The notes under the pieces: model-generated
Seen by the model: the letters and a program-made list of their open reading frames with translations, nothing else
What the model was told of the DNA's origin: nothing
The model's database searches: none
Made by a program: the position numbers and the translations under genes
Part shown: one piece after another, positions 1,136-36,408 of the stretch
How positions within the stretch are numbered: position 1 is the first letter of the stretch
Layout of the letters: every line of letters starts with the position of its first letter
Source of the DNA: an uncultured Lachnospiraceae bacterium
GTDB lineage: Bacteria; Bacillota; Clostridia; Lachnospirales; Lachnospiraceae
Reading direction: 5' to 3'
Assembly (NCBI GenBank): GCA_951800685.1
Contig: CATOJY010000026.1
Span: 1 to 47,612 of the forward strand
Length of the DNA: 47,612 bases

Positions 1136-1281
1136 TATAAGAACATCTAAAGAGATAATTAGAAATCTATTAAATGATTTAATGTTTAAAAATAATAACG
1201 AACAAAAGGACCACTTGCCGGAATTTCAGAGCCTCTCCTCCGTACAGGAAAGCATCACAAATAATTTTCCGTCCATTCTAT

Positions 1282-1887
1282 CTACTTTTTAGCTTTGAGA
1301 AATAATCCTTTATCTTTTCTATAGGTGTGTACTGTCTTAAATCCAGAGTAACTAAAAAATTTTACTAATTCTTTTTGGCTGTATACCCTAACATCTCCGC
1401 TTTTGGAAAAAGGAAACCAAAATTTATTTGCAAAAAATCTAAGGATTACTCCAAAATTAGGTTCGGCTATATATATTGTACCATTGTTCTTTAAAACTCT
1501 CCTACATTCATTTACAAATCCCTGCGGATCTTCGAAATGGTGAAATGCACAACATACTGTTATAATATCAATGCTCTCATCGCTCCATTCCAGGGGACAA
1601 CATGGTTTTACATCAAATTTTATATTAGGATAACGCATTTTTGCAGCGTGAATCATATTCTCTGATAGATCAATTCCATTTGCGTGAATCTTTGTTTTTT
1701 TCGATAGTTCCCCTAACAGGGTTCCATTTCCGCATGCAACATCAAGAATGATATCATCTTCAGTCAAATATATTATGTTAGACAACTCTTTGATATGAAA
1801 TTTGGTATATTGGCCTTCTTTTGATGTATCGTATTCAAACGCTATTTTATTGTATGCAATCCTTGATTTTTCTGTTTTCTTATTCAT
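1282..1887 (-). CDS. Class I SAM-dependent methyltransferase (Methyltransf_11 type)
   Basis: A 201-residue soluble methyltransferase of unknown substrate. Motif I is ILDVACGNGTLLGEL (about residues 47-61), motif II is ANGIDLSENMI, and later come ITVCCAFHHFEDP and VLKNNGTIYIAEP, the standard order of a Rossmann-fold methyltransferase. The ATG at 1887 has only a weak GGTGA site upstream. The gene is much more AT-rich than the operon that follows and sits beside the integrase, so it may be ICE cargo or a flanking insertion; the sequence does not show which. The family includes ubiquinone/menaquinone-type and small-molecule methyltransferases, and nothing here allows a substrate call. Confidence 0.85.
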   Translation of the reverse strand: MNKKTEKSRIAYNKIAFEYDTSKEGQYTKFHIKELSNIIYLTEDDIILDVACGNGTLLGELSKKTKIHANGIDLSENMIHAAKMRYPNIKFDVKPCCPLEWSDESIDIITVCCAFHHFEDPQGFVNECRRVLKNNGTIYIAEPNFGVILRFFANKFWFPFSKSGDVRVYSQKELVKFFSYSGFKTVHTYRKDKGLFLKAKK

Positions 1888-1951
1888 GTCATTTCACCAA
1901 ATTTCTATGTATCTTGCTTATGTCATTATAAAGTACGGTATGTAGTTCGTA

Positions 1952-1973
1952 AATAATTTAAGAATAATTTAAG
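1952..1973. promoter_or_regulatory. Tandem 11-bp direct repeat, probable OmpR-family regulator site
   Basis: AATAATTTAAG occurs twice with no gap (1952-1962, 1963-1973). Two hexamers at an 11-bp period on one DNA face is the usual form of OmpR/PhoB-type response-regulator boxes. It lies about 175 bp upstream of the ABC efflux operon and about 35 bp upstream of a TATTAT-like element near 2006-2011. Confidence 0.5.
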
Positions 1974-2009
1974 ATTTTGGTGTGTTTCTTTTAAGAAAGG
2001 ATTGATATT

Positions 2010-2084
2010 ATGATATCGATAAAAAATGAAGGCAATGGACAGTCTGTTTCGTTATATTTAAAGAAAGAGTACATATTGTTTTGA
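2010..2084 (+). CDS. Possible 24-residue small protein or leader peptide
   Basis: ATG at 2010 follows an AAGAAAGG ribosome site and runs 24 codons to TGA (2082-2084); the peptide ends in LYLKKEYILF. It lies directly ahead of the MacB-like operon. I do not recognise it. It could be a leader peptide, a small secreted peptide or chance. No signal sequence is visible. Confidence 0.3.
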   Translation: MISIKNEGNGQSVSLYLKKEYILF

Positions 2085-2126
2085 AGTAGGTTTCAATATA
2101 AGCATAGAAGAAAGGAACGTAGTATC

Positions 2127-2828
2127 ATGGGGACATTGGTGGAAATCCGGGATATCTGCAAGGTCTACAATCCCGGAGAAAATGAGGTGAAGGCGCTGGA
2201 TCATGTGAGCCTGACAATTGGGGAAGGAGAGTTTGTAGCGATCATCGGTCATTCTGGTTCGGGCAAATCCACGTTGATGAACATGCTCGGCTGTCTGGAT
2301 GTGCCCACAAGTGGCAGCTATTTTCTACACGGACACGATGTGGGCAGTATGTCGGATGATGAGCTCTCAGATATCCGTAATCAGGAGATTGGCTTTGTTT
2401 TTCAAGGGTTTAATCTGATTTCCAGTCTGACAGCAGTGGAGAATGTGGAACTGCCCCTGATTTACCGTGGAGTGGGAAAGAAGGAGAGGCTGGAGCTGTC
2501 AAAGAAAGCGCTTGATAAGGTAGGACTTGCTAAGCGTAAGAGCCATAGGCCTTCTGAGATGTCCGGTGGACAGCAGCAGAGAGTGGCCATTGCCAGAGCG
2601 ATTGCCCAGGCGCCTCCTATTATTCTGGCGGATGAGCCGACGGGAAATTTGGATTCTGGATCCACCAAAGAGATCATGGATATTTTACGGGGGCTTCACG
2701 AGGAAGGCAGGACGGTGATCTTGATTACCCATGATGATGAGATTGCAGCCCGGGCGAAACGGGTTATTAAAATTATGGATGGAAAAATAGAGGAGGATTA
2801 TGAAAATGTTTCGGAAGGTGAAGAATGA
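2127..2828 (+). CDS. ABC transporter ATP-binding protein, MacB/LolD type
   Basis: ATPase subunit of a three-gene MacB-like efflux system in the cytoplasmic membrane. It is 233 residues long, normal for the family. Walker A is GHSGSGKST (residues 41-49), the Q-loop is in FVFQGFN (about 90-96), the signature is MSGGQQQR (145-152), Walker B is IILADE (165-170) and the switch His is in LITHDD. The ATG follows GAAAGGAACG. The 3' end overlaps the adaptor gene by 29 bp, indicating translational coupling. Family members export peptides, macrolides, lipoproteins or antimicrobial peptides; the substrate cannot be read here. A regulator-like tandem repeat lies upstream. Confidence 0.95.
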   Translation: MGTLVEIRDICKVYNPGENEVKALDHVSLTIGEGEFVAIIGHSGSGKSTLMNMLGCLDVPTSGSYFLHGHDVGSMSDDELSDIRNQEIGFVFQGFNLISSLTAVENVELPLIYRGVGKKERLELSKKALDKVGLAKRKSHRPSEMSGGQQQRVAIARAIAQAPPIILADEPTGNLDSGSTKEIMDILRGLHEEGRTVILITHDDEIAARAKRVIKIMDGKIEEDYENVSEGEE

Positions 2829-4401
2829 GACACAAAACACGGACATTACGGAAAGAGTACCCAAAAAGGTAAAGGTTCCTATGGATAAGGAAAAAAAGAA
2901 AAAGATCCGCCGCCGGGTGATTGCAGGGATATTGGTCGTTTTGGTAGCCGGATTTTTTGTGAGGAATTCCCTGGTGGCCAAAAACGCAGTGCCTATGGTA
3001 TCAGCTGTTACGGCAGAAACAGGGGATGTGGAGAGGATTTTAAGCACTGGCGGCACGGTGAAGAGTGACGAGACACGGACTTATTTTGCGCCTGTATCCG
3101 TAGAGGTGGGTGAAGTAATGGTGAGTACCGGTGATATGGTAAAAAAGGGGGATGTGCTTCTTGTCTTTGACGAGAAAGCGCTGTCGGAGGAAAGACAAGA
3201 GGCGGAGTATAAGTTGGCTTCCAATGCGGGTGGTTATGAAAGTTCTGTGCACAAGAATAATGAATACATGGCGGATCTGTCCGAGGCAACCACGAATTTG
3301 GCCGTATTGGATCAGCAGATTGAAGATAACAAAAATCTGTTAAAAGAAATCAACCAGAAGATTGAGGATAAGAAGGCGGGCTGGTCATACAACGCAGCGG
3401 CTCTGCAGGCATCCATTTTGGAACAGCAGAAAAAAATTGAGGATGAAAAGCAGAGGCTGGAAGAGAGGCATGCATGGGAAGCAGAGCAGCGGATTGATTC
3501 CGATGATAAGGAAAAGCAGGAAAAGGATGAGGCGGCCAAGGCGCAGATTGCCTATGATGAGGAGACGCTTCTCAATCTGCAGCAACAGGCGCAGTACAGC
3601 AGCTACGAGGAACAGAACAACAAAGAAGTACGGGAACTGCAGAAGCAGGCGAAAGATGTGGAGGAACTGATAGCCTCCTATGAGGAATACAAAGCGGAGA
3701 TGAAATCGCAGAAAGAGTCTTCCGAGAATGGGGTTATGGATGCAGGAGGCAGAGCGAAGCTGGAGGCAGACACAGCGCTTGAAAAGTTGGCCAATCAGGA
3801 GAAGCTGGACGCCATTGCAGAAGTGGAGAACGGCTTAAAGGCTGATTTTGCGGGTGTAGTAACAGAACTGGAAGCGGTAGCTGGACAACCGCCCACGGAG
3901 AGCGGGAAGCTGGTGACCATAGAGAGTACGGAGAAGGTATTAGTGCGGCTGAGCGTCTCTAAGTATGATCTGGAAAAAATTGCCGTGGGACAGAGTGCTG
4001 ACGTGGATATTGCCGGGAAAACTTACAAGGGTACAGTGAAAAAGATTGATGGTATGGCGACTAAGAATGAAAGCGGCGCTATGGTAGTGGGTGTGGATGT
4101 CAATATTGAGAATCCTGATGAGAATATCTTCCTCGGCGTGGAGGCCAAAGTTTACGTACATATGGAAAAGGCTGAGGGAGCGGTCACAATTCCTTTAGAA
4201 GTGGTATGCAGTGACATGGAGGGTGACTTTGTGTTTGTGGAGGAGAATGGTGTAGTAGCGAAAAAACGGGTCACTGTAGGTATTTCCTCCGACAGTGTTT
4301 GTGAAATCAAAGAGGGGATTACCGTAGGCGAGAATGTGCTTTTGCCCGGAATGACAGGAATTGATCTGCAGGAAGGCATGGCGGTGATGGTGGCGCCGTA
4401 G
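2800..4401 (+). CDS. HlyD/MacA-type efflux adaptor protein
   Basis: Membrane-anchored adaptor of the MacB-like system, 533 residues. It has a Lys/Arg-rich cytoplasmic start, one transmembrane segment (about 40-55), a biotinyl-lipoyl-like half (TGDMVKKGDVLLVFDEKAL, about 107-125), a very long Glu/Lys/Gln-rich coiled coil (about 130-350), and a beta-barrel with membrane-proximal region (VRLSVSKYDLEKIAVGQSADVDI onward). The start at 2800 is fixed by GAGGAGG six bases upstream, inside the ATPase gene. In a Gram-positive cell there is no outer-membrane channel, so it presumably works at the membrane/cell-wall side. The coiled coil is long for the family. Confidence 0.92.
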   Translation: MKMFRKVKNETQNTDITERVPKKVKVPMDKEKKKKIRRRVIAGILVVLVAGFFVRNSLVAKNAVPMVSAVTAETGDVERILSTGGTVKSDETRTYFAPVSVEVGEVMVSTGDMVKKGDVLLVFDEKALSEERQEAEYKLASNAGGYESSVHKNNEYMADLSEATTNLAVLDQQIEDNKNLLKEINQKIEDKKAGWSYNAAALQASILEQQKKIEDEKQRLEERHAWEAEQRIDSDDKEKQEKDEAAKAQIAYDEETLLNLQQQAQYSSYEEQNNKEVRELQKQAKDVEELIASYEEYKAEMKSQKESSENGVMDAGGRAKLEADTALEKLANQEKLDAIAEVENGLKADFAGVVTELEAVAGQPPTESGKLVTIESTEKVLVRLSVSKYDLEKIAVGQSADVDIAGKTYKGTVKKIDGMATKNESGAMVVGVDVNIENPDENIFLGVEAKVYVHMEKAEGAVTIPLEVVCSDMEGDFVFVEENGVVAKKRVTVGISSDSVCEIKEGITVGENVLLPGMTGIDLQEGMAVMVAP

Positions 4402-28878: not shown

Positions 28879-30039
28879 TTATTTTGAAATCGGTATCTCT
28901 AGTGTCTCAACATTTTCATTTTCATACGATGTCAAAACGATTAGTGCAGCCATCTCATCAATATTAAGAACCCGGGCAAAACCTGCTATTTGATACGCAT
29001 TTGACTTGCTGCTGTCTGTATATCCCAATCTGCCGGGATTCGTTAAGTAGGGAATTCTTGTTCCGTCTTTTAATACAACGCCCTTGACTTCGGGAATGCC
29101 AAGATCATCATCCTTTTCTGCCGGAGCCGCACTGACAGAATAATTCACTTTGATGGAAATCGGTGAGATATTGATATCCTCCATTGTGAAACCCGTTCCT
29201 TCCACTTTCTGTCCTACCCTTATATTTTGAGTCGAACTGACAGCGGAAAGGTTTATTTCAAAATTCCAGTTCCCATCCACTGCAGATGTAAACGCTCCTT
29301 TTGAGAATGTTCCCAAATTTTTGAATTCAACATGCAGTGTCTTGCCGAGAAATGAATCGTTCTTGTCCACAACACTTGCCTGAATCATGTATTCCATATT
29401 TCCATTATCATCAGTATAATGAGAGATAATACTTCCATCTTCATAATTTTCTATGGGTGTTCCATCTTCATATACCGGTTTACCGTTTTCATCAAGGATA
29501 ATTCCATCATACATGGTTCCGTTCATATTAACCCATGCGCTTTCATCCTCAGGATTATCTCCCTGGTACACATTTACCATATCAAATCCCGGCTCCATCC
29601 TATCCGCTACGCTATAACCAGAAATACGAAATGCCATATATACAAATCTCTCATCCACAATAACGGTATCCGGCTCTATTGTAACACCGTTATTTGTTAC
29701 GGCAAGTGACGGACGATCCGGCTCTTCACTGTACACCTTTGCTATATTCTTTTCTGTAAGCACTCGCTGCTGTTCATCGGATGCCTGAATATTTCCGTTC
29801 ATGCCTCTCCCCCAATAATGATGAATTGCGGCAGCGGCGCTTATACTGCTAACGGCTAATATGCAGACACCTGCGATAGCGGCAGCCTGCGTTTTAAACA
29901 TTTTTTTACTTCTGGTATGTGTTTTTTTCATACAAACGGTATCCTCCTGCTTAATCATTGCAAAGGCCTGATTTGTTTTTTTCAACACAATTTCCGATAA
30001 CTCTATTTCTTCAGAAAGTATAGTTTTTTTATTTGCCAT
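28879..30039 (-). CDS. DUF4179 membrane protein, probable anti-sigma factor
   Basis: A 386-residue protein: cytoplasmic N-terminus (1-50), one transmembrane helix (AAAIAGVCILAVSSISAAAAI, about 52-72), and a large outside domain with the DUF4179 pattern beginning near NNGVTIEPDTVIVDERFVYMAFRI. Such proteins are usually paired with an ECF sigma gene, which here ends 11 bp upstream. AGGAGG lies before the ATG. This is the second such pair in the window; the first (10188-11860) is only distantly similar. It is more AT-rich than that pair. Confidence 0.85.
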   Translation of the reverse strand: MANKKTILSEEIELSEIVLKKTNQAFAMIKQEDTVCMKKTHTRSKKMFKTQAAAIAGVCILAVSSISAAAAIHHYWGRGMNGNIQASDEQQRVLTEKNIAKVYSEEPDRPSLAVTNNGVTIEPDTVIVDERFVYMAFRISGYSVADRMEPGFDMVNVYQGDNPEDESAWVNMNGTMYDGIILDENGKPVYEDGTPIENYEDGSIISHYTDDNGNMEYMIQASVVDKNDSFLGKTLHVEFKNLGTFSKGAFTSAVDGNWNFEINLSAVSSTQNIRVGQKVEGTGFTMEDINISPISIKVNYSVSAAPAEKDDDLGIPEVKGVVLKDGTRIPYLTNPGRLGYTDSSKSNAYQIAGFARVLNIDEMAALIVLTSYENENVETLEIPISK

Positions 30040-30049
30040 TTGTATCCTC

Positions 30050-30556
30050 CTAACAATCGCGATAATACTTTTCCACTTGTTTTCTTCCTCTTGAAATCCT
30101 CGTCTTGATGGTATTTAATGGTAATGACAGCATTTCAGCGATTTCTCTCATCTTGAATCCCTGACTGTAGTACAATTCCATAGGCAGTCGATAACGTTCG
30201 TCTATAGAAGCATATGCCTCCTTCAATTCAAGATTATACTCATCACATTTTGACGGTTCCTCATAAGATTCTATATTCTTGTAAGCTGTATTATCTCTTA
30301 TGATATCATAGCAATGGTTTATAAGTATTCTTGTCATCCATGTCTTAAAGAACTCCGGTTTCTTAAGTGTATATAACTTTTCCCAACAAGTGAGAATTGT
30401 ATCCTGAAGAGCATCTGCAGCATCTTCTTCATTCATTAGAATTGCAATGGCAGTTCTATACATATCCTTCATATATAACTGCATGAGTTCAGTAAATGCG
30501 TCTTTATCATGCCTCTGCGCCTTCTTTACATAAAACTTTGTTTCAATGCTTTTCAT
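30050..30556 (-). CDS. ECF-family RNA polymerase sigma factor (second pair)
   Basis: A 168-residue sigma factor: region 2 with AFTELMQLYMKDMYRTAIAILMNEEDAADALQDTILTCWEKL (about 18-60), KTWMTRILINHCYDIIR, then region 4 with DERYRLPMELYYSQGFKMREIAEMLSLPLNTIKTRISRGRKQVEKYY (about 118-164). The start is the ATG at 30556 after TAGGAGA; the frame runs open upstream to 30724, but that part is Lys/Arg-rich, lacks sigma features and has no ribosome site. A 14-bp inverted repeat lies about 25-60 bp upstream. Confidence 0.93.
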   Translation of the reverse strand: MKSIETKFYVKKAQRHDKDAFTELMQLYMKDMYRTAIAILMNEEDAADALQDTILTCWEKLYTLKKPEFFKTWMTRILINHCYDIIRDNTAYKNIESYEEPSKCDEYNLELKEAYASIDERYRLPMELYYSQGFKMREIAEMLSLPLNTIKTRISRGRKQVEKYYRDC

Positions 30557-30578
30557 TAACTTTCTCCTACGCGCGTAT

Positions 30579-30619
30579 GATTGTAAAACAAACAAGCGTT
30601 TTTCATTTGTTTTACGATC
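30579..30619. promoter_or_regulatory. 14-bp inverted repeat upstream of the second ECF sigma gene
   Basis: GATTGTAAAACAAA (30579-30592) pairs with TTTGTTTTACGATC (30606-30619), one wobble, 13-nt spacer. It is an operator or leader-hairpin candidate; the GTAAAAC arm could also include an ECF-type -35. Confidence 0.45.
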
Positions 30620-30726
30620 ATTAGACGTCAGATATTGTCTTTTGGTTTCAAAATATTTATTCTTCTTTTTTGTCCTAAATTTCCTCCAATTTATATATCG
30701 GAACCACACAATTCTATCTAGCATTT

Positions 30727-31178: not shown

Positions 31179-34100
31179 TTATAGCTTTCCGCAGAGATAG
31201 GCATAAGCATTTAAGATCGTGTTCGGCCGCTTCCCGGCAATGAAATAGTAATCCATCTGTAGCTCGCTTTGCGCATAGAGGTAAGTGCCATAGGCAGGCA
31301 GATCGCAGCAGATTACCGGACTGTCAGCAGCCAGAACGATGCCATATCCTTTTTCTGAGAGAAGAAAGGGCAAAGCGGCAGTCGTTTCTGCCAGCCCCTG
31401 GACGGAGTCTGTACATTGGTGCGTCAGGGAGCGGGATGCTGTGAGGTCAGAAAGGATTCTGCCGGATGGCTGGCCAGTGCAGGCGGCTTGGATGCTGTGT
31501 GAGATATACCGGGCAGTCTTGCGGATGTTCATACCCTTAGTCTCGCCGGCACCCATGGCGTAGATCGTCTCGTTTTTGGGCCAGTCAGGATAGAGCCAAA
31601 TTTTCATATGGCCGTCTGGGGAAGCTTCCAGCTGACGGCATTCTTTATTTCGTTCTGCAAAGAGAGGTTTCTTATCCCGCGTCATAAAGTGGATAGAGCC
31701 ATTTGCCTTATCGGTCTGTACAAGAAGTTCATCTGTCATCAGGTCTATTGTAGAGGAGGATTCCTTGTACATCCATGAGCGTTCTGTTCGGTGAACGGCG
31801 ATGGCAGGATGGAAACGGTCTATGATCTGCCCATTTTTTGCAAAAGTGACGCGCACAATGGCACTGCCTACGGGACTTAAACGCAGGACGCCGTAGCGGC
31901 TGTGAAGATAGAGCCCGTCTGCCTGTTTTGCACTCCAACGCACAGCTAAATCGATTTTACCGTGGCCTGCAGGGCGCAGGAGTTCCGTGGCGGGCATGTC
32001 GCCAAATTCCGGTTTAGCCGGATACCCCTTTTGTGTGCTAGTCTGGCGCATAGGAAGAGCATTTTGAGCGGATGACATAGTCATGTCGGGGCTGCTGGCG
32101 CTGCTTGACCGGGTTTTATGGTTTATGGGGAGCGTGTGTTCTACGGCAGGCTTTGGTGGTGTCGGTTTTGGTTCAGATGGCCGGTTTTGTACGATGGAAA
32201 TTTTCTTTTTCAAGGGCTTGCCAGAAGCAGGCGGTTTCGTTTCTGTTATGGCGGGTTTAGCCGTGACTCTTATGTTATCTGGAACAGTAGACTCAACTGT
32301 ATAGTGTGTATGCTCCGGAACAGGATCCGTGATCAGTCTGGTCAGACTTCCGGTGTGAAGTACACACAGTTCGTGCAGGGCGCGTGTTGCGGCCACGTAG
32401 AGTAGTTTTGCATGGCCGTCTTCTACAGGATAGTCTTCCTGTGTCGGATCTAAGATCAGTACGGCGTCAAATTCAAGCCCTTTGGTGTAGTCCACCGGCA
32501 GCACCATGACACCATTACCAAAGACGGCTTTTTCTGGATTACTCTCAATATGATCGAGGAATTGGGATAGGTCTTTGGCTGTTTTTGCGGCGGATGCAAG
32601 ATCACGGCAGATCACAGCGATGGTATCCCAACCCTTTTGCAGCCATTCCTGGCAGGTATCGGCGGCAGCTTTGACGAGAGACTTCCGATCTGGCAGATGT
32701 CTTGTCTGTACGGCATTGCCGTGACGGAGAATCGGTTCCACTGGGTAGACGAAGAAACGTCCATGCCGCAGAATATGGGTAGCGAAATTGGAGATTTCCA
32801 CCGTGTTGCGGTAACTTTTTTTCAGAAGGCCGAAGGTATCAGCAGGATCAGGCAGCAGCAGGCTGCGCAGAGCCTCCCAATCGTTTAGGCCATAGCCAAA
32901 GTGGATGTTCTGGGAGACATCGCCCATCACTGTATAGGTACAGCCACGAATGCAGAAGTTTAGGGCATAGTAGGCCATCATGCCGAAATCCTGTGCTTCA
33001 TCGATGACAATATGATGTGCTTCACTGATGACTTCTGTCTCCTTGACCCGCTTGTAGAGATAAGCCAATGCGGCCAGGTCGTAAACGTCAAAGGCGGTAT
33101 CCGGGATAGTGACCATAGCGCCGCTGGCATTCTGTTTTATCAGGAAATCATGGTAAAGCGCATAGATTGACTTTTTCCAGATCCTGGGACCGTAATGCTG
33201 CCGGTAGGCTTTGAGAATCGCTTTTTTCTCAGCATCTGTATATTTGATGCCTTTTCCCAGAAATTCTTCTTTGATCTTATTGCGCAGGCGCTCGTTTAAC
33301 ATGTTGATCTTACTCTGGATGGAGATGGCTGGATTCTGTTTCAGGTAGCGTTCGATAGCATCGCCTTCCAAAAGACAGACAAGGTTGCGGAGGTCTGTTT
33401 TCCCTTCGGTGGTGTCAAATACACCGAACTTGCCGTCACGGAGACCCTCTACGAACTGCTTTGGGTTCAGATAGACGGATTTACAGGAGATGGTGAGCTC
33501 CTCCAGTCTGCGGCAGTAGTTTTCTAACGCCCGGAACCAGGCGGCGCTGCCTTTTACGCTGTCTCCTTCTGGTTTACTCTGGTGCAGAGTGTCTGTTTCC
33601 AGCAGAGTATGTTTTGGCAGGGGGTTTGGAGCTTTTGCAACGGGTGCAGGGGTTTGTGTCTGCGTAGTACTGACTGCCGGTTGAGACCTTACATTTCTGA
33701 TTGTGTATTTCTCAGGATCCCAGTCTTCATACAGAAGCCTTACAAAAAGCTGCTCCATAGTCATCTGGCGCACGCCGTAGACGTCCAGATCTGGAAGGAC
33801 TCCTGTAATATAGTCTAGCAGGATGCGGTTGCTGCCTACGATATAGAAGTCGTCAGGACGGAAGCGTTCTGCGTAATTATAGAGAATGTAAGAAATCCGG
33901 TGCATGGCCACGGTGGTCTTGCCGGAACCTGCCACCCCTTGCACAATGATATTGTGGAAGGGGGATTTGCGGATGATCTCGTTCTGTTCTTTCTGGATCG
34001 TGGCAACGATTTCACTTAAGACGGCCTGTTTATTTTTGGCCAGATATTTGGTGAGAAGATCGTCATTGGCGATCACTTCACTGTCAAAATAGTCAAGCAG

Positions 34101-34601
34101 TTCTCCTGATTCAATTTCGTAGGTGCGTTTCAGCTGCAAATCGATGGCGATCTCTGCTTCACCGGGAGCTTTGTAAGTGCATTTACCAAGGCCGTTTTCA
34201 TAATAGGCGTTGGCTACAGGGGCACGCCAGTCGATGACGATCTGATGGGTGGAGTCTTTGGAGATACCGCCCTTGCCGATGTAAAGAGATTCTGTCTTGT
34301 CAAGAGACTCGTCATGAAAGATAATCCTGCCGAAGTAAGGTTTGCTCTGTGCCTTTTCATTCCGCAGAAGGGCACGCTTCATGTGGTCGTGCAGAGTCAC
34401 TGTGTTGTTTAAGATGGTGAGGACTTCTACGTCATTGTCGTGATAGTGGGCCAGCATTTCGTCTATATCCTCCTGCATCCTTGCAACTTCTTTTCCATAG
34501 TGGGAGAGGTTGTCTTTCACGACAGCAAGCGTCTTTAGCAGGTAGGTTTCTTCGGCCTGCCTTGAGGTGGACGAGGAAATTTGGTTTGGTTGTGTACTCA
34601 T
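31179..34601 (-). CDS. helD: HelD-like helicase fused to a GH31-type N-terminal domain
   Basis: A 1140-residue protein. Residues 1 to about 760 are a HelD/UvrD-like superfamily 1 helicase; HelD proteins free stalled RNA polymerase. Parts: N-terminal coiled coil (about 10-60), the VIDWRAPVANAYYE motif, Walker A GVAGSGKTT (about 222-230), a Thr/Pro/Gln-rich insert (about 295-345), Walker B VIDEAQDFG (about 535) and the C-terminal VAATRALHELCVL. A Pro/Lys/Ser linker (about 765-860) leads to about 275 residues resembling the galactose-mutarotase-like N-terminal domain of GH31: GAGETKGMNIRKTARY, PFLLSEKGYGIV, DYYFIAG and a final AYLCGKL. It stops where the GH31 barrel would begin. ATG at 34601 has AGGAGGT; the extension to 34748 is not preferred. 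Confidence 0.9.
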   Translation of the reverse strand: MSTQPNQISSSTSRQAEETYLLKTLAVVKDNLSHYGKEVARMQEDIDEMLAHYHDNDVEVLTILNNTVTLHDHMKRALLRNEKAQSKPYFGRIIFHDESLDKTESLYIGKGGISKDSTHQIVIDWRAPVANAYYENGLGKCTYKAPGEAEIAIDLQLKRTYEIESGELLDYFDSEVIANDDLLTKYLAKNKQAVLSEIVATIQKEQNEIIRKSPFHNIIVQGVAGSGKTTVAMHRISYILYNYAERFRPDDFYIVGSNRILLDYITGVLPDLDVYGVRQMTMEQLFVRLLYEDWDPEKYTIRNVRSQPAVSTTQTQTPAPVAKAPNPLPKHTLLETDTLHQSKPEGDSVKGSAAWFRALENYCRRLEELTISCKSVYLNPKQFVEGLRDGKFGVFDTTEGKTDLRNLVCLLEGDAIERYLKQNPAISIQSKINMLNERLRNKIKEEFLGKGIKYTDAEKKAILKAYRQHYGPRIWKKSIYALYHDFLIKQNASGAMVTIPDTAFDVYDLAALAYLYKRVKETEVISEAHHIVIDEAQDFGMMAYYALNFCIRGCTYTVMGDVSQNIHFGYGLNDWEALRSLLLPDPADTFGLLKKSYRNTVEISNFATHILRHGRFFVYPVEPILRHGNAVQTRHLPDRKSLVKAAADTCQEWLQKGWDTIAVICRDLASAAKTAKDLSQFLDHIESNPEKAVFGNGVMVLPVDYTKGLEFDAVLILDPTQEDYPVEDGHAKLLYVAATRALHELCVLHTGSLTRLITDPVPEHTHYTVESTVPDNIRVTAKPAITETKPPASGKPLKKKISIVQNRPSEPKPTPPKPAVEHTLPINHKTRSSSASSPDMTMSSAQNALPMRQTSTQKGYPAKPEFGDMPATELLRPAGHGKIDLAVRWSAKQADGLYLHSRYGVLRLSPVGSAIVRVTFAKNGQIIDRFHPAIAVHRTERSWMYKESSSTIDLMTDELLVQTDKANGSIHFMTRDKKPLFAERNKECRQLEASPDGHMKIWLYPDWPKNETIYAMGAGETKGMNIRKTARYISHSIQAACTGQPSGRILSDLTASRSLTHQCTDSVQGLAETTAALPFLLSEKGYGIVLAADSPVICCDLPAYGTYLYAQSELQMDYYFIAGKRPNTILNAYAYLCGKL

Positions 34602-35277
34602 GTGGGACCTCCTGTGTTGTGATACCATGGTATAGTTGTTGTATATGCAGTTATTGTAAGGAAAAAAAGAAAATATTACTAGACTTTTATTTTTTGATAT
34701 GTTATAGTGGACATTAGAGTATCGCTTAAAAATAATATTTGATTTCAAACATAAATCTATACGTTTTGTCGAACTTCATTCTGTATTCTCCAAATACCGG
34801 AATGTTTTATAATTATTTTTTGTCTAAAGCAGGTCTTTCTGTTATGCGCTGCCTTTTCAAAGGAGCTGATCAACAACGTACCCCCCGAACAAAAATATTT
34901 TTTACTTTGGTCTTTGAGCTGCGTTTTTTATTGTAGCACAAACACAGGAGTGGAACAACAAAGCAGCAGCTTGAAGAGGAACGTCTAATGTTTCTGATCG
35001 GGATATTGCCCATCAGGGGAGTGAAATCCCTGTTTGGGTGATTGGAACCAGGAAATATTCCATTTACAATAGATTCATGGGATACAAAAGCGAGTGACTA
35101 TATGTGTATTTAGAGACAGAGTGCTTGAGCTTATCATGACAATTATGTGGCAGAAGCCTTCCGCTGGGGTCTGGAGCTTGCCTGTGAAGAAGAGGGAGGT
35201 ATCTATGGCTACAAGGACAGAGTGTCGGATGCTTTGGCATGCGTGGAAGAGACTGTGAAAAGGAGAGGGATGTGTGA
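34602..35277. other. Long intergenic region with coding-like scraps
   Basis: From 34602 to about 34940 it is AT-rich and should hold the minus-strand promoter of the helicase fusion (a TTACAA/TATACC pair is possible but weak). From about 34945 coding-like fragments appear on the plus strand: one around 34990-35094 with VWVIGTRKYSIYNRF, and one open from 35129 to 35311 with YVAEAFRWGLELACEEEGG and YGYKDRVSDALACVEETVK. Each is cut by stops, which suggests decayed genes. I do not recognise them. Confidence 0.35.
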
Positions 35278-36408
35278 ATGGCATCGATCAGACTTAGAAT
35301 TTATGATTTGAGAAAAGCGAGGCAGATGAGTCAGAAAGAGCTGGCGGATGGGGTTGGCGTTTCCGTACAGACAGTCAGTAAATGGGAGAACAATGTCTGT
35401 ATGCCGGATATTGCGCTGCTGCCGGATATCGCGAAGTTTTTCCAAGTGACGGTGGATACGCTTCTGGGACTTACGCCGCTGGCGGGGGAGGAGTATATAC
35501 CGATCCGGAGCGGGGAGAGGGATTACTGGGAGGACAGACTGGACTATCTGAAAGCCAGCAGACGAACGATGTGGAATGCGGATTACTTAAGGTTTCTGGT
35601 TGAGCAGGTGTGGAAGATCGATAGACCGGTGGACGTGCTGGACTGCGGTTGTGGGTTTGGATATATGGGGAAAATGCTATGTCCCCTTCTGCCAGAAGGA
35701 AGTACTTATACGGGCATTGATTTCAGTGCCAATCTTGTGCAGGAGGCGAAGAAACTATTAGGGGGAGAGCGTTGGCAGACTGAGATTATCTGTGACGACT
35801 TTCTGTCTCATGGATTTCGGAAGCACTATGATATGACGCTTAGTCAATGTGCCATGCGGCATGTGAATGATCCGCGGGCTTTCTTGCAGAGGATGATCAT
35901 GCAGACGAAGCCGGGTGGTTTGGTGGTGGCAATCGATGTGAACCGGGAATTGGAGAGTGACGGTCTGTATATAGAGGGTCTTGCATATACGCAGTTGTGT
36001 GACCGTATGGGATTTCGCAAGATGTGGGAGAAAGAGCGGCAGTGCCAGGGCAGGGATTACGCCATCGGAATGCGGCTTCCGTTGATGATGCGGGAGGAGG
36101 GGCTTGTAGATGTGGATGTGCGGATGAATGACAGAGTGTCGTTGATCTGTCCAGAGCGGGAGGACTGCAATGAAATGCTGGAATGTCTGCTGGAGGAAAA
36201 AGACTGGAAGGAGAGGATCAGTGGGGAGGAAGAGGAAGAGATTGTGCACAGATTCTTAAACCACGGTTTGGACAGGAAGGAGGCGGAGAGCTATTGCCGC
36301 AGGCAGAGGAAGATACAAGGATATGTGAAAGAGAACAGGGCAGATTTAAAATGTCTGCATTATCGTGGTTTGATGGTGAGCTTTGGGTGGAAAAAAGATA
36401 AGGTGTGA
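35278..36408 (+). CDS. XRE helix-turn-helix fused to a SAM-dependent methyltransferase
   Basis: A 376-residue fusion. Residues 1-65 are an HTH_3 domain (MSQKELADGVGVSVQTVSKWENNVCMPDI), ending LLGLTPL. Residues about 115-230 are a class I methyltransferase with motif I VLDCGCGFGYMGKML, YTGIDFSANLV, and CAMRHVNDPRAFLQRMIMQTKPGGLVVAIDV. A C-terminal helical part (about 240-376) has WKERISGEEEEEIVHRFL. The substrate is unknown; a protein joining DNA binding to methylation of a small molecule could sense or modify its own inducer. GGAGAGGG lies about 8 bases before the ATG. An upstream decayed fragment overlaps its start. Confidence 0.88.
   Translation: MASIRLRIYDLRKARQMSQKELADGVGVSVQTVSKWENNVCMPDIALLPDIAKFFQVTVDTLLGLTPLAGEEYIPIRSGERDYWEDRLDYLKASRRTMWNADYLRFLVEQVWKIDRPVDVLDCGCGFGYMGKMLCPLLPEGSTYTGIDFSANLVQEAKKLLGGERWQTEIICDDFLSHGFRKHYDMTLSQCAMRHVNDPRAFLQRMIMQTKPGGLVVAIDVNRELESDGLYIEGLAYTQLCDRMGFRKMWEKERQCQGRDYAIGMRLPLMMREEGLVDVDVRMNDRVSLICPEREDCNEMLECLLEEKDWKERISGEEEEEIVHRFLNHGLDRKEAESYCRRQRKIQGYVKENRADLKCLHYRGLMVSFGWKKDKV

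Follow-up and report, generated by a model that had tools for sequence, protein, structure and literature searches.

What does a helicase of the HelD family do with half of a glycosidase attached to its end? We addressed this question at a gene in contig CATOJY010000026.1 of an uncultured Lachnospiraceae bacterium (assembly GCA_951800685.1), of which positions 1 to 47,612, all 47,612 nucleotides, form the stretch analyzed here (the window). A preliminary description of this DNA had reported, in one frame, a HelD-type helicase followed by a GH31 N-terminal domain that lacks the barrel, and our analysis confirmed the motifs, the frame and the lack of a barrel behind them. The gene product is a HelD-family motor joined through a variable linker to a barrel-less GH31 N-terminal domain, and the gene was the sole match in a whole-protein search of the window's assembly. 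We propose, with a probability of roughly 0.4, that the added domain is a basic hand gripping RNA polymerase or nucleic acid as the motor, in its likely role, clears stalled polymerase. The parts of the gene are listed below (pLDDT, predicted local distance difference test; dN/dS, ratio of nonsynonymous to synonymous substitution rates).

31179..34601, minus strand: the HelD-GH31N fusion gene, an open reading frame of 1140 codons plus stop
34017..34601, minus strand: residues 1-195, region matching the secondary-channel arm, with predicted helices 14-51 and 58-85 and D55 and D57 in the turn; overall model quality is low
33912..33938, minus strand: residues 222-230, Walker A motif GVAGSGKTT, K228 aligned with B. 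subtilis HelD K239 by a hand-counted offset
33087..33731, minus strand: residues 291-505, position of the clamp arm, in the gap separating two aligned pieces that represent the two domain 1A halves; bounds approximate
32985..33008, minus strand: residues 532-539, VIDEAQDF
32322..32810, minus strand: residues 598-760, domain 2A (head), by PF13538 and a match to 6vsx
32016..32303, minus strand: residues 767-862, variable linker of low pLDDT, 58-181 residues long across 93 loci, dN/dS 0.38-0.47
31182..32015, minus strand: residues 863-1140, barrel-less GH31 N-terminal domain, by sequence and fold matches to GH31 enzymes
31377..31496, minus strand: residues 1036-1075, an insertion of low pLDDT that most relatives lack

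The C-terminal domain is predicted to adopt the fold of a GH31 N-terminal domain, and the model thereby agrees with the earlier assignment. PF13802 scored 24.3 in the whole protein and 26.3 in the isolated domain, both under the Pfam gathering score of 27, and it was matched at E 0.001 by 50 of 96 members of the fused-domain family; the fused gene was not among the matches when the genome of the window's assembly was searched with PF13802. The catalytic TIM barrel (PF01055) had no match in the protein, which ends where the barrel would start, and no open reading frame for it lies behind; an autonomous enzyme was rejected for this lack of a barrel. An N-x(4-6)-PF or N-x(4-6)-P segment precedes the next strand in the GH31 enzymes compared, and the corresponding loop of the fused family is short and variable. 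A lead segment, conserved as FGDMPxTExLRPxGHxKIDL, precedes the sandwich. Among the full-length GH31 genes found, the one closest to the fusion is L178 (genome G137; 1160-3583 on the minus strand); its N domain scores 106 BLAST bits against the fused domain, the next of four GH31 N domains reaching 34. In this gene a barrel match directly follows the N domain, whose net charge is -8; the frame is interrupted inside the barrel and split over two overlapping-region open reading frames. The HelD of the same genome is unfused (L019). A stand-alone gene for the domain was considered: a second protein search gave 64 shorter proteins, of which the ten inspected resemble fragments of the fusion, and several of the remainder bear 'partial' in their names. 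Shorter database proteins that start inside the linker do exist (P0121, P0137).

The helicase part aligned with B. subtilis HelD 6wvk over residues 65-286 and 506-767 (E 1.6e-71). The Walker A lysine K228 (B. subtilis K239) was invariant across 63 aligned rows, as was W125, which a hand-counted offset aligns with B. subtilis W137, the tryptophan termed absolutely conserved by Newing et al. (PMC7749167). The NCBIfam model HelD_BACSU scored 328.6 bits, below its cut-off of 419, and we therefore call the protein HelD-family and not an equivalog of B. subtilis HelD. Both aspartates at the turn of the predicted N-terminal hairpin are more than 90% conserved, the model itself being weak (predicted template modelling score 0.37). 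No delta subunit of RNA polymerase was detectable in the window's assembly. An anti-phage system was considered and rejected, as PADLOC returned UvrD-type matches alone (best GajB, 42.2 bits). A different fusion was seen in one genome (L179 in G024, contig C53, 1757-4798, minus strand), where a ketopantoate reductase (PF02558, PF08546) and a UvrD-type helicase matching the window's HelD share a single 1014-codon frame.

The fusion recurs across relatives, in a family sample, in named strains and on a tree, and a local accident, the doubt raised with the preliminary description, was thus rejected. A first protein search gave 1023 proteins at E 0.001, and each of the best 120 has helicase Pfam domains and a length of 1010-1219 residues; matches beyond these may include GH31 enzymes. 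Within the same bacterial family 75 of 200 genomes, the window's own included, matched the query protein (P0001). Of the 30 family loci listed, 14 have the domain and 16 lack it; in 13 of the 14 it lies in the helicase frame (one cut by the contig end), and in L013 it lies in another frame. In that locus (genome G127) the frame is broken in the linker at about 2546-2658, which could reflect a mutation, a sequencing error or a switch. A class-level sample gave matches in 152 of 393 genomes, the 29 loci listed besides the window's own all being without the domain. In a named collection both parts stood in one frame in 80 of 80 kept loci, the best 80 of 339 relatives and hence biased to close kin; L118 and L128 have a partial domain. 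The fusion is present in Eisenbergiella tayi DSM 26961, E. porci, Acetatifactor muris DSM 23669 and Parablautia intestinalis D8-82, and also in a complete genome (L088). The only sampled genome of the window's genus (G049) had no P0001 match, so the gene is patchy even among close kin.

A tree of 79 helicase parts placed the 55 fused rows on one side of a single branch (support 99); five Lachnospiraceae HelDs that lack the fusion fell immediately outside the fused clade. It was built by a quick method with a midpoint root and flagged long branches, L013 counting as fused, from 79 of 139 helicase rows; those omitted were the even-numbered loci from L064 on except L066, any row shorter than 550 residues and, of the rows from other families, two thirds. 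On this midpoint-rooted tree a single capture of the GH31 N domain is apparently the simplest account. The domain is held under selective constraint: over three pairs dN/dS was 0.066-0.083 in the domain, 0.065-0.086 in the helicase and 0.38-0.47 in the linker; synonymous divergence (dS) exceeded 1 in most of the pairs and had no defined value for parts of L066, L067 and L069.

We then compared charges. Fused domains had a median net charge of +5 (0 to +10; 96 rows), linkers of +7 (-4 to +19; 93 rows) and fused helicase parts of -19 (93 rows). PF13802 control domains, taken as GH31 enzymes, had a net charge of -8 (-18 to +1; 30 family loci), and the two sets of domains differed with a p-value of 1.6e-16, which is overstated because the rows are related. 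The controls were 30 of 32 fetched PF13802 loci (L002 and L177 omitted, L176 partial), cut at a fixed margin, and their barrels were not verified individually. This basic charge, which contrasts with the acidic N domains of the enzymes, suggests that the domain now likely grips nucleic acid or polymerase. A basic-hydrophobic motif of the KKxISIV type, a pattern picked after the linkers were seen, occurred in 45 of 93 otherwise unconserved linkers (mean 6.6 and highest 13 in 300 shuffles) and lies at about position 32200 in the window.

Upstream of the gene we noted the following elements.

34608..34613, minus strand: AGGAGG ribosome binding site; an AGGAGG-type site is aligned in nine upstream regions
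34653..34658, minus strand: predicted sense -10-like hexamer TACAAT, its -35 position overlapping that of the antisense site
34680..34708, plus strand: predicted antisense promoter-like site TAGACT-N17-TATAGT, with TG ahead of the second hexamer
34653..34727, minus strand: upstream block common to nine aligned relatives, the window included

A strict form of the antisense pattern, derived from the same loci in which it was counted, was present in 72 of the 93 fused loci whose upstream sequence was long enough, in 9 of 15 unfused family loci and in 0 of 27 other-family loci; the background of these loci, 3.43 million strand-bases, held 0 matches. A sense hexamer TANNNT begins 19-22 bases on in 78 of the 81 loci having the strict pattern. 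The window's assembly holds the strict pattern twice (once here) and the reversed pattern five times, so a single genome proves nothing; a 19-base core has one exact occurrence there and three with three mismatches. An additional sense promoter may lie farther upstream. That the antisense promoter serves a divergent gene is unlikely as a rule, because the upstream gene (within 2 kilobases, 69 loci) was divergent in 26 loci and co-directional in 43. In the window itself this gene does point away from the fusion gene: its single frame (35278-36408, plus strand) holds an HTH_3 DNA-binding domain and a methyltransferase domain. In B. subtilis a strong antisense promoter governs helD, and rifampicin relieves the repression that it exerts (PMC12802891). 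At the fusion gene, an antisense promoter overlapping the sense promoter would similarly keep expression low and yield upon RNA polymerase inhibition.

How might such a protein work? A GH31 gene segment would have been captured behind helD and its role in catalysis lost. By analogy with published work on B. subtilis HelD, the two HelD arms would reach into the channels of RNA polymerase and free its DNA and RNA. HelD sits on the downstream side of RNA polymerase, where a positive patch of the clamp arm could meet downstream DNA (PMC7749167), and an added basic module linked to the head may reinforce this hold. Several observations weigh against a hand of this kind. Nucleic-acid contact in B. 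subtilis HelD is ascribed to the clamp arm, and therefore no extra hand is required; an acidic protein partner would suit a basic surface equally well. Charged domain positions conserved in at least 70% are near balance (24 basic, 21 acidic), net charge is 0 in 5 of 96 domains, and linker charge extends down to -4 as well as up to +19. Moreover, the strict promoter pattern is missing from 21 of 93 fused loci, including ten deep-branching ones (L008-L013, L015-L017, L021).

The domain may instead be a protein-docking module, recruiting or restraining the motor by binding either the HelD head or some partner that is neither core polymerase nor nucleic acid, a reading that we consider possible but doubtful. 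The N domain of GH31 enzymes does pack on another domain, and both the conserved lead segment and the post hoc linker motif would suit a docking role; however, no recurrent partner gene adjoins, and docking accounts for the charge difference solely if the partner is acidic. It is unlikely that the domain is a passive relic or a cap for folding or stability with no function of its own. The broken linker frame in L013 and the shorter domain-bearing database proteins, mostly on short contigs, would be expected of a relic, but the dN/dS of the domain equals that of the helicase, though dS exceeds 1 in most comparisons, and the domain is kept throughout the fused clade of the tree. Next to no chance is left to an assembly or gene-calling artefact in which two genes were run together: many records are metagenome assemblies and the contamination of the window's assembly is 5.32%, but the same architecture in named strains, in one frame in every kept locus, and in the complete genome refutes it.

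The preliminary description had offered two readings, a protein-binding module or a sensor of sugar or a glycan-like ligand, and the sensor inference found no support. A domain that binds a sugar or a glycosylated RNA polymerase inhibitor, the ligand switching HelD, would fit its GH31 ancestry, the capacity of HelD proteins to counter RNA polymerase inhibitors (PMC12802891, PMC10719064) and a promoter pair reminiscent of an inhibitor alarm. It is made improbable by the short, variable loop aligned with the N-x(4-6)-PF segment, by a charge reversed relative to the acidic GH31 N domains and by the lack of a recurrent neighbor at most loci. Neighbor genes were clustered, not annotated: the widest cluster reached 21 of 80 loci, 18 clusters reached at least 8 loci, and no cluster had more than 9 members within 1.5 kilobases. 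An operon with sugar genes was thus not supported, although two clusters (17 and 14 loci) resemble sugar-type transport permeases by eye. A GH31 gene near the fusion was found in 1 of 80 loci (L083, about 5 kilobases off) and was weakly similar. A bolder version, in which a glycosidase domain turned drug sensor recognizes the sugar part of a glycosylated RNA polymerase inhibitor or a sugar signal of the cell and thereby activates HelD, with polymerase inhibition read by the promoter pair, is a long shot. The fusion gene's next downstream neighbors in the window are an ECF-type sigma factor (30050-30724, minus strand) and then a DUF4179 protein (28879-30039, minus strand), which are probably a sigma/anti-sigma pair.

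Half of a catalytic architecture lives here without its barrel on a factor whose B. subtilis relative frees stalled RNA polymerase, and its opposite charge and selection make binding of nucleic acid or polymerase by such a domain a testable question. Another testable question is what HelD requires where bacteria have no delta subunit, and the upstream element prompts one more, whether Lachnospiraceae use competing promoters to detect inhibitors of RNA polymerase.

Records of the fused family (P0042, P0051) bear the name DUF4968, which we take to be the older name of the GH31 N-terminal domain. The statement in the preliminary description that no such protein had been described was nearly right: as far as literature searches reach, the fusion had been noticed but not studied. 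Full-text searches for the combination gave no paper or PMC7749167 alone. In the Methods of that paper the architecture is named, sequences having been chosen for their HelD-like part from 74 and 37 'DUF4968 domain-containing' hits, and a word search of the main text of the HelD classification paper PMC8655204 gave no 'C-terminal', 'extension', 'fusion' or 'glycos'. The DUF4968 HelD-like proteins of PMC7749167 thus have the same architecture by name; there they are a hit category, and the sections covered do not treat the origin or role of the domain. With GH31 alpha-xylosidases, dextranases and related enzymes (FjDex31A, BoGH31A, MeXyl31) the fused protein shares the predicted N-terminal domain fold and the residues up to the barrel, but it differs in lacking the barrel and the N-x(4-6)-PF segment and in its positive net charge. 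With B. subtilis class I HelD (6wvk, 6zca) it shares the Walker A lysine, the conserved tryptophan and a split domain 1A with an insertion, whereas its 1140 residues, against 774, add the linker and the GH31 N domain. Like the dual-promoter rifampicin alarm of B. subtilis helD, it has a putative antisense promoter with an extended -10 upstream; the promoters of the alarm converge (search criterion 45-100 base pairs apart, PMC12802891), whereas those of the fused loci stand back to back with overlapping -35 positions. The promoter pair of the fusion gene may therefore share the logic of this alarm in a different geometry.
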